Positions 18,792 through 39,748 of a stretch of DNA of 64,000 nucleotides are shown in pieces (within the stretch, counting starts at the first letter, position 1; every line of letters starts with the position of its first letter). This stretch comes from Dissulfuribacter thermophilus (GTDB lineage Bacteria; Desulfobacterota; Dissulfuribacteria; Dissulfuribacterales; Dissulfuribacteraceae). Location of the stretch: assembly GCF_001687335.1 (NCBI RefSeq), contig NZ_MAGO01000002.1:124001-188000 (forward strand), read 5' to 3'. Position numbers and translations under genes: made by a program. The notes beneath the pieces were generated by a model that was given only the letters and a program-made list of their open reading frames with translations, did no database searches and was not told the origin of the DNA.

Positions 18792-18917
18792 TTTACCTCC
18801 TAATGATTAACTTCTTTTTAAAAGCATTTTGTGCTAGTATTAACCCCTAAAAATCAAATTCGAAATACAAATATCGTGATTCAAAACAAATTTTATTTGA
18901 CTAAAATGCCACATTAT

Positions 18918-19173
18918 CCAAAATTATGCACTGCGAAAGAGGGCAAAAATGAATTTTCTTTTTATATCAACTGGTTACCTTATTGTAGCCTATTGCTGAA
19001 CATTCACCTTTTTGGTGCAGCAAAATTCATGCTGTTTTTGCCCTCTTTCGCAGCCCTTCGGGATTGGCGATTTTGCCCAATCTGCTTTGTTGCTCGGGGC
19101 TCGAAGTACCTAAGTACGTCTTCGCCCCTCGCGCCTCGCATCTTGGACAAACTCGCCAATTGCATAATTTGGG
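18918..19173. repeat. Structured repeat family, full 256-bp copy (copy B)
   Basis: Terminal inverted repeats are CCAAAATTATGCA (18918-18930) and TGCATAATTTGGG (19161-19173), flanked by the 5-bp direct repeat ATTAT on both sides. Arm I is a perfect 19-bp inverted repeat, 18931-18949 with 19035-19053, extended by about 9 bp after a small bulge. Arm II pairs ATTGGCGA (19063-19070) with TCGCCAAT (19153-19160) and encloses a GGGGC/GCCCC hairpin at 19096-19128. It is the same length as the copy at 39458-39713, in opposite orientation; the arm II half is about 94% identical and the middle of arm I is diverged. It lies between divergent genes. Confidence 0.85.
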
Positions 19174-19230
19174 ATTATTTGTGGCTGAAGGTCTTAAGTT
19201 CCTGTAATTCGATGTTTTAACGAGTTGAAT

Positions 19231-20532
19231 ATGAAATTTTCCTTTTTACATGCAGCAGACTTACACCTAGACAGCCCATTTTCTACCTACTCTAATCTAC
19301 CAACTACATTAAAAGACGCCCTATTAAACGCCCCGTTCAAGGCATTACAAAAACTTGTAAATTTCGCCATAAAAGATAGGACCTCATTTTTATGCCTCTC
19401 AGGAGATATATTTGATTCCATGGAACTTGGTCTAAGGGCGCAGACGAGGTTCCTCATGGAAATTGAAAGACTATATAAGGCAGGCATAAAGGTATTCATA
19501 TGTTTTGGAAATCATGACCCTTTAGGATCATCATCTCTTTCAGTGAATCTTCCTAAAAATTGTTTCGTCTTTCCATCAGAAAATCTTGAATCATTTGATA
19601 TAGAGCCCATAACAGGGGTTCGCTGTAAGATTTCAGGCATTAGTTACAAAAGAAGGGATGAAAAAAGAAATTTATCGAGGCTCTTTGGAAAACTTACTCC
19701 TAAACAAGACCAATTTTCCATAGGGATGCTACATACCAACTGCGGGGGGATTAGCAGTCACTATAACTATGCTCCATGTACATTGAATGACTTAAAAGGA
19801 GCCCCTATTGACTATTGGGCCCTTGGCCATATCCACAAGATGACCATACTGTCAGACTCTAATCCATTTGTAGGATACCCAGGTGTAATTCAAGGGAGGA
19901 GCTTTAAAGAAACTGGCCCTAAGGGATGTTTTCGCGTACAAGTTGAAGGGCAAAAAGTAAAAGTGGAATTTATTCCCCTGGATACGATCAGGTGGACAGT
20001 TACCGAGTGTGTACTTTCTCAGGAAAAGACAAAAGAAGAAATCTTTGAAACAATTTCTAGAGTCCTTAACTCCTTTTTAAATAATATGCCTGATCAAAGT
20101 CCCTTACATATTGTTAGGGTCGTCCTTTCAGGAAAGGCCTTTTTAAAAGAGACCATTTATAAAGAAGACCTATTGTTCGACATCAAAGAGGCCTTGAATG
20201 ACATTTTTTTTAGCGTGAATACAGGTCTTTGGATCGATGAAATAGTGGACAAGACCACATGCCCCATGGATATTGAAGAGCTAAAGATTGGAACGGATCT
20301 CGTAGCTGAGATCCTCAGGACCATGGATCATGTCCAAAAGGATAATGAGACGCTAGAGCAGTTGAGAAAGGTACTTGATCCAATCTATAGGAGACGGGAG
20401 ATATCGAGGTTTCTTTCCCCTCCTGGAGAAGAAGAATTCCTAACACTGCTAAATGAAGCGAGAGATCTACTGCTGGAACTATTTGAACCTAAATCCTGCA
20501 CGGCAAAAGAGACAAATCTGGACAGTTTTTGA
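19231..20532 (+). CDS. YhaO/SbcD-like Mre11-family DNA exonuclease subunit
   Basis: Calcineurin-type metallophosphatase with all Mre11/SbcD motifs: HAADLHLDSPF, LSGDIFD, CFGNHDP, MLHTNCGG and ALGHIHK. The AADLHLDSPF start is typical of the Bacillus YhaO group. By family it is the Mn2+-dependent nuclease partner of the SMC-like ATPase encoded next. I take the ATG at 19231 rather than a TTG two codons upstream; the ribosome-binding site is weak. The last ~15 residues (EPKSCTAKETN...) are encoded by a partial copy of the structured repeat, so the C-terminus was probably remodelled by insertion. The stop is seven bases before the next gene. Confidence 0.9.
   Translation: MKFSFLHAADLHLDSPFSTYSNLPTTLKDALLNAPFKALQKLVNFAIKDRTSFLCLSGDIFDSMELGLRAQTRFLMEIERLYKAGIKVFICFGNHDPLGSSSLSVNLPKNCFVFPSENLESFDIEPITGVRCKISGISYKRRDEKRNLSRLFGKLTPKQDQFSIGMLHTNCGGISSHYNYAPCTLNDLKGAPIDYWALGHIHKMTILSDSNPFVGYPGVIQGRSFKETGPKGCFRVQVEGQKVKVEFIPLDTIRWTVTECVLSQEKTKEEIFETISRVLNSFLNNMPDQSPLHIVRVVLSGKAFLKETIYKEDLLFDIKEALNDIFFSVNTGLWIDEIVDKTTCPMDIEELKIGTDLVAEILRTMDHVQKDNETLEQLRKVLDPIYRRREISRFLSPPGEEEFLTLLNEARDLLLELFEPKSCTAKETNLDSF
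20488..20509. repeat. Structured repeat family, partial end inside coding sequence (copy E)
   Basis: 22 bases starting CCTAAATCCTGCACGGC, identical to one end of the 39458-39713 copy. Similarity fades after 20509. No matching second end or 5-bp duplication is visible, so this is a decayed or solo end. It lies in frame in the 3' end of the yhaO-like gene and encodes part of its C-terminal tail. Confidence 0.6.
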
Positions 20533-27737: not shown

Positions 27738-27806
27738 CCTAAATCTTGCACGGCAAAATGGGGCAAGAATGCCTATTGGGTAAACTCGCCAATTGCAAGA
27801 TTTAGG
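27738..27806. repeat. Structured repeat family, 69-bp deletion copy upstream of rpmB (copy C)
   Basis: Terminal inverted repeats CCTAAATCTTGCA and TGCAAGATTTAGG pair perfectly over 13 bp. The inside keeps only the outer strand of arm I (ACGGCAAAATGGGGC) and of arm II (AAACTCGCCAAT) of the full element. The flanking pentamers TTTCA and TTCTA do not match, so any target duplication is decayed. It ends 17 bases before the rpmB ribosome-binding site, so if transcribed it forms a stem in the leader. Confidence 0.8.
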
Positions 27807-39269: not shown

Positions 39270-39457
39270 GATCTGTGAAGGTAATCTTGTTTTCTCTATT
39301 CTTCAATAGACTGAAGCCAGTTTATGAAATATGAAGCAAATATCATTTTCAACTAAGTGAAAAAAAGCACCTTTTTAGCCCCCCCTTTTATTTAATAAAA
39401 TTTATGGTATTCCTTATTTCTTGGCAGGAATACATGCTTACATGCTGAAAAATATTA

Positions 39458-39713
39458 CCTAAATCCTGCAATTGGCGAGTTTGCCCAAGATTCAAGGCGC
39501 GAGGGGCGAAGACGTACTTAGGTACTTCGAGCCCCGAGCAACAAAGAAGATTGGGTAAAATCGCCAATCCCGAAGGGCGACAAAAGGGGGCAAAAAACAC
39601 AAAATATGGATTCGCCCAAAAAGTGAATTTGAGGAAAGGCTAAATATTGGCTAACCCCCTAATATAATCGTTCAAAATTCATTTTTGCCCCCTTTTGCCG
39701 TGCAGGATTTAGG
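39458..39713. repeat. Structured repeat family, full 256-bp copy (copy D)
   Basis: Ends CCTAAATCCTGCA and TGCAGGATTTAGG are perfect inverted repeats, flanked by the 5-bp direct repeat TATTA on both sides (39453-39457 and 39714-39718). Arm I pairs 39581-39596 with 39682-39697 perfectly over 16 bp. Arm II pairs ATTGGCGA (39471-39478) with TCGCCAAT (39561-39568) around a GGGGC/GCCCC hairpin (39503-39535). No coding potential. It fills most of the gap between divergent trpF and the YkgJ gene. Confidence 0.87.
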
Positions 39714-39748
39714 TATTAGCTGAAAATATTTATGAATATTTAGGTCCT

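Follow-up and report, generated by a model that had tools for sequence, protein, structure and literature searches.

A family of gene-less repeats in the window and the host genome

The 64,000-nucleotide stretch of the Dissulfuribacter thermophilus genome analysed here (the window; contig NZ_MAGO01000002.1, positions 124,001 to 188,000) carries copies of a folded repeat of about 255 bp, which is most likely a non-autonomous MITE (miniature inverted-repeat transposable element) that IS1380-family transposases mobilise in trans. Judged from sequence comparison, the probability of this reading is about 0.85. The repeat has the characteristics by which MITEs are recognised, namely terminal inverted repeats, target-site duplications and no internal transposase gene. 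The original prediction had placed a structured mobile repeat at five sites in the window, and coordinates, ends and end-stem changes were as it claimed. Each full-length copy is built from an end stem, arm I, a mini hairpin and arm II, laid out as follows.

18918..19173, + strand: copy B, full-length (256 bp), with ATTAT at 18913-18917 and 19174-19178; covariance-model score 150.1 bits
18918..18930, + strand: left terminal inverted repeat of copy B, CCAAAATTATGCA, the end type that also adjoins IS1380-type transposases
18931..19053, + strand: arm I of copy B, from the fold; stem CTGCGAAAGAGGGC / GCCCTCTTTCGCAG and the region it encloses, holding 9 of the 24 pairs that covary
19054..19062, + strand: mini hairpin of copy B, CCCTTCGGG, between arms I and II, from the fold and the alignment of relatives
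19063..19160, + strand: arm II of copy B, from the fold and covariation
19080..19143, + strand: arm II tip of copy B, 64 bases, ATCTGCTTTGTTG ... CGCCTCGCATCT, which recurs in other repeat families
19161..19173, + strand: right terminal inverted repeat of copy B, TGCATAATTTGGG, from end comparison
39458..39713, - strand: copy D, full-length, CCTGCA subfamily, with TATTA at 39453-39457 and 39714-39718; score 148.6 bits
572..616, + strand: copy A, a 45-bp internal-deletion remnant with TTATA on both sides and a badly decayed right end
27738..27806, + strand: copy C, a 69-bp internal-deletion remnant with two intact ends, flanked by TTTCA/TTCTA and thus lacking a duplication, which the original prediction had not ascribed to it either
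20488..20517, + strand: lone left end, in the 3'-terminal part of the open reading frame (ORF) 19225-20532

Copies B and D are inserted in opposite orientations. The sole ORF across copy B is a chance frame (18831-19220), in agreement with the claim that no transposase is carried.

Genome-wide searches revealed a larger family than first noted. In the host genome (G000; 2,524,199 bases in 27 contigs) BLAST, in which 40 of 115 candidates were scored, recovered at least 52 pieces of the repeat. An arm II covariance model yielded 101 matches (E ≤ 0.001), some few of them being another match read on the opposite strand, or about 100 matches in 2.52 Mb. With one mismatch allowed, the 13-base end is present 130 times compared with 7 for a reversed control, and the terminal inverted repeat has the consensus CCyAAAT(TA/CC)TGCA. 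Among 39 elements that were chosen, and their limits set, by their ends (at most three mismatches in each), 27 have perfect 5-bp duplications, and one (L017) lies at a contig edge where no judgement can be made. Within these 27 duplications 119 of 135 bases (88%) are A or T. Together with the three flanked copies in the window, whose duplications ATTAT, TATTA and TTATA were confirmed, this bears out the claim that the element has moved. Of the 32 full-length copies in the host, 20 have a relative with an identity of at least 0.88.

The host genome also contains 18 short forms. The many internal deletions that occur only once had suggested that full-length forms alone spread; as a rule this is contradicted by two 84-bp forms (L298 and L310) with a common junction and 94% identity, a pair which indicates that a short form may have moved on at least one occasion. 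An insert of 27 bp, the hairpin CCCTGTACAGTGTCTGTACAGGGCAGG or a near variant, is present at different positions in two other copies (L007 on G000:C12 and L009 on G000:C8), and the insert of a further element, L253, is similar (CCTGCCTGCAGCAGGCAGG).

Beyond the host, BLAST matches were present in 31 of 60 genomes (the host included). Under stricter filters, the covariance model was run on 395 genomes drawn from the phylum and matched 31, of which 20 fall outside the order. A pattern of end plus arm was found in 16 stretches, for which the named records are metagenome-assembled genomes titled Deltaproteobacteria or Thermodesulfatator. Phages and plasmids gave no match to copy B nor to a composed 68-base query of the tip module, and neither of two typed patterns matched in viral contigs.

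Ends shared with IS1380-family elements

The original prediction held that the ends fit no recognised insertion family, and named a known insertion sequence with identical ends as one finding that would speak against it. Such elements exist: IS1380-family elements with the same ends occur in relatives of the host, where transposase genes of this family adjoin the MITE-type end CCCAAATTATGCA, and this part of the prediction has to be abandoned. The IS1380 family, of which ISEcp1 is a well-known member, resembles the present repeat in ends that start with CC and contain an AAAT/GAAT core, in 5-bp A/T-rich duplications and in the common 13-base end in relatives. It differs in carrying a transposase, which the present element lacks, and the interior of the latter is unrelated and folded.

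The IS1380 transposase profile PF13701 was found in 14 of the 60 genomes (the host among the 60), and relatives of the transposase of genome G029 were found at 11 distinct loci in the order. At 8 of these the MITE-type 13-base end lies nearby: L072 (G029, CCCAAATTATGCAC), L102 and L108 (G009), L100 (G017, on both sides), L101 (G019), L099 and L110 (G011), and one in the host with two mismatches. It was not found at the other three, in G013, at G011:C101, a locus cut by the contig end, and in G014, where the protein is 27% identical. Across the phylum, transposase relatives at 1e-30 are present in 14 of 395 genomes, and elsewhere in the phylum an intact 1816-bp IS1380 element (L192) has ends CCTGAATTATGCAC, a TTTAA duplication and a 499-aa open frame. 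The proteins of L072 and L192 score 195.7 and 252.5 bits, above the NCBIfam IS1380 cut-off of 180. Two other MITE end types likewise have IS1380 counterparts, CCTAAATTGAGCG (MITE L246; insertion sequence L075) and CCTGAATCTTGCA (MITE L241; insertion sequence L195).

In the host itself, a remnant at G000:C9:118674-118877 (within L104, 118674-119076) has 47% identity to the G029 protein and an end TCCAAATTATGTA; by its sequence it is probably all that the host still has of the autonomous partner. An IS1380 transposase would recognise the ends alone and insert the element at A/T-rich sites, and the family would probably be stranded in the host because the host's own transposase has decayed. Mobilisation by a transposase of some other family, or by a site-specific system, with the resemblance to IS1380 being coincidental, would fit a host that keeps no intact IS1380 gene; the matching ends, the duplication length, the NCBIfam assignment and the existence of an IS1380 counterpart for each of three MITE end types make it scarcely credible.

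Several observations nevertheless weigh against mobilisation by IS1380 or against parts of this model. Transposition itself was not observed, and the profile search for PF13701 found no match, and hence no intact IS1380 gene, in the host genome. The insertion sequence copies L100 and L195 lack a matching duplication, and between the MITEs and the IS1380 elements no common sequence was noticed beyond the ends of about 13 bases. As one armless short form (the 84-bp pair) occupies two sites, the arms are not strictly required for jumping, which speaks against a strict need for the fold. Finally, among the 12 elements from outside the order that enter the covariation alignment described below, duplications are perfect in 4, match at 4 of 5 positions in 4 and at 1 to 3 positions in another 4 (L251, L253, L255, L256), so that the limits of these elements are less sure.

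One IS1380 copy (L079, G019:C1) is apparently broken by the insertion into its gene of several short palindromes whose core is like CCTGTCTGCCG or CCGGCAGG.

Fold and covariation

Copy B folds far more stably than its shuffled versions (z -10.0 as RNA and -9.8 as DNA), as does copy D (z -7.3 as RNA), and no shuffle was as low in either case. These low z-scores, the excess of ends (130 compared with 7) and the duplications in 27 of 39 elements argue that the element is not a product of chance. The paired changes reported for arm I (GAAAGAGGG/CCCTCTTTC versus CAAAAGGGGG/CCCCCTTTTG) and for arm II (TGC/GCA versus TTC/GAA) are present.

Significance of covariation was assessed with a script of our own that is modelled on R-scape, with a null that replays substitutions on the tree; sequences more than 95% alike were removed beforehand. 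An alignment restricted to the order (80 elements, 66 after filtering; L007 and L009, which carry 27-bp inserts, were excluded, as were four rows that were duplicates or doubtful) gave 16 significant pairs of 77. A second alignment, A2 (69 elements, 68 after filtering), extends beyond the order: 20 far loci were fetched, and L240, L242, L243, L244, L247, L248, L249 and L254 were omitted as near-duplicates, as cut by a contig end or, in the case of L244, L249 and L254, as lacking credible limits. Here 24 of 77 pairs (5 from the end stem, 9 from arm I, 6 from arm II and 4 from the inner hairpin of arm II) vary together beyond the tree-based null, compared with 0-1 when partners were slid by 1-3 columns. 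Double changes on the same branch numbered 155 in A2 versus 2-15 in the slid controls. The RNAalifold consensus has 45 pairs, 39 of them with changes on both sides. A test over all possible pairs was weak, with a single significant pair in the order-only set, which lies outside the structure, and five in A2, four of them inside it.

When folded singly, the far relatives mostly show the same four parts in succession (end stem, arm I, mini hairpin, arm II), built from stems whose sequences are unrelated. Exceptions are L243 and L255, which have other minimum-energy folds, L248, which consists of arm II alone, and L252, in which the mini hairpin is unpaired. The claim of a three-arm fold maintained by paired changes therefore stands. 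The further statement that it is kept as single-stranded DNA or RNA is upheld for the complementarity and not for the single strand: no strand preference was found in the main stems or in the orientation of copies, and the single-strand claim was too strong, as cruciform DNA or copying from arm to arm would yield the same pattern.

Possible roles of the fold

Perhaps the inner fold is retained at the DNA level, without a preferred strand, since a protein or a folded-DNA intermediate would aid the persistence or spread of the element; we put this at somewhat short of an even chance. A possible but doubtful alternative is that the arms stay complementary without selection, through template switching at replication or gene conversion that copies one arm to the other, as long palindromes are known to do. 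The frequent same-branch double changes (155) and the lack of strand bias in the main stems are what such copying would produce. It does not predict the conserved unpaired letters, the mini hairpin or the length of about 255 bp across genera, nor the frequent A-C mismatch in arm II (29 of 66 sequences).

If the fold instead acted as RNA, transcribed from one strand and selected as a structured transcript, either independently or within mRNAs, G-U pairs should be tolerated on that strand. In the three main stems G-T occupies 81 cells versus 147 for A-C (sign test over pairs, p=0.14), and of the 44 copies between co-directional genes, 28 lie on the genes' strand versus 16 on the other (p=0.096). 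Strand-specific RNA is thus unsupported, as G-U does not exceed A-C in the main stems and the orientation bias is not significant. In favour of RNA, the mini hairpin loops of relatives are mostly TTCG, TCCG, TACG, TGCG or GCAA, which are stable RNA tetraloop types; by the rules of tetraloop stability, the opposite-strand reading of these would give stable DNA loops too. Letters within the arm II tip are conserved, and G-T is more frequent than A-C in the smaller inner hairpins (94 versus 45 and 32 versus 18 cells), with about 60 of the 94 coming from one column pair. Rfam had no match in the window at the gathering threshold and none that convinces below it (best E 0.91). All told, a role as RNA appears unlikely.

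Still less likely is that the main role of the element is to terminate transcription or insulate genes and so render insertions harmless. Its strong hairpins would suit this role, and 76 of 78 copies are not spanned by an open frame according to crude ORF calls; the sites between convergent genes, however, amount to only 15 of the 78 copies, with 19 divergent and 44 co-directional, so that convergent sites are not in excess and a terminator role was rejected. Gene context was taken from 78 of the 101 model matches, the omitted ones being weak, partial, short or opposite-strand matches and some strong ones with short fetched flanks.

Relation to known mobile repeats

Folds of bacterial MITEs are usually derived from one folded sequence, whereas here covariation across a phylum comes together with a likely mobilising family. 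The bacterial MITEs with structured transcripts, namely Correia/NEMIS, RUP and ERIC (PMC2229807), QMITE2 (PMC10969869) and MITEPye1 (PMC11578231), share with the present element inverted ends, duplications, the lack of a transposase and a stable predicted fold. RUP is linked to IS630-Spn1 (PMC2229807) and MITEPye1 belongs to IS1182 (PMC11578231). The present element differs in its link to IS1380 and in a fold supported by phylum-wide covariation instead of single-copy folding. Its ends and duplications point away from REP/REPIN repeats with their Y1 (RAYT) transposase. The repeat bcr1 of Bacillus cereus is likewise described as gene-less and mobile, with tens to more than 100 copies and a link to a 5-base TTTAT motif, in a host of another phylum (PMC6542083). 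Closer to the host, abundant intergenic repeats, some palindromic, are described as multicopy nucleotide sequences in two former Deltaproteobacteria, Geobacter metallireducens (PMC2700814) and Pelobacter carbinolicus (PMC3543383).

Within the open-access literature pairing both terms, no IS1380 MITE is described, and the novelty of the present element is provisional. The word IS1380 is absent from a 2024 review of prokaryotic MITEs (PMC10969869), and open-access work pairing Desulfobacterota with MITEs or repeats contains nothing on this element. The findings raise the testable question of why gene-less jumping repeats keep elaborate hairpins and whether a factor acting at the DNA level reads them.

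The arm II tip in other repeats

The pattern of the arm II tip, ATCTnCTnyGTTG-N(28-48)-CGCCTyGnATCT, is present in 17 of 395 phylum genomes and occurs 25 times in the host, compared with 0 among the matches listed for its reversed control. The same 64-base tip is enclosed by repeats of a second family, whose ends resemble GTAAGCGTTCACAGGG / CCCTGTAAACGCTTAC. Stems of the type GTAAGCGTTCACAGGGCACCGC ... GCAGCACCCTGTAAACGCTTAC and their relatives bear it at L051, L055, L182-L187, L321 and L337 (G000:C1:174176), and, in fewer cases, so do AGGCTGCTGAAAAA ... TTTTTGACCAGCCT hairpins of the type AGGCTGyTGAAAAA, at L332 (G236) and L334 (G309). In the open-access literature the tip sequence matched only unrelated papers. 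The sharing of the tip among repeat families may reflect shared descent, capture or convergence. Tentatively, it could be a portable structured module acquired separately by unrelated repeats, a putative docking site for an unknown factor on folded or cruciform DNA that would aid spread or tolerance. If confirmed, a shared tip would suggest that several repeat families depend on one factor, supplied by the host or by a mobile element.

Columns 204 and 228 of A2, in the arm II tip, show strong covariation outside the predicted stems, perhaps from a non-canonical contact.
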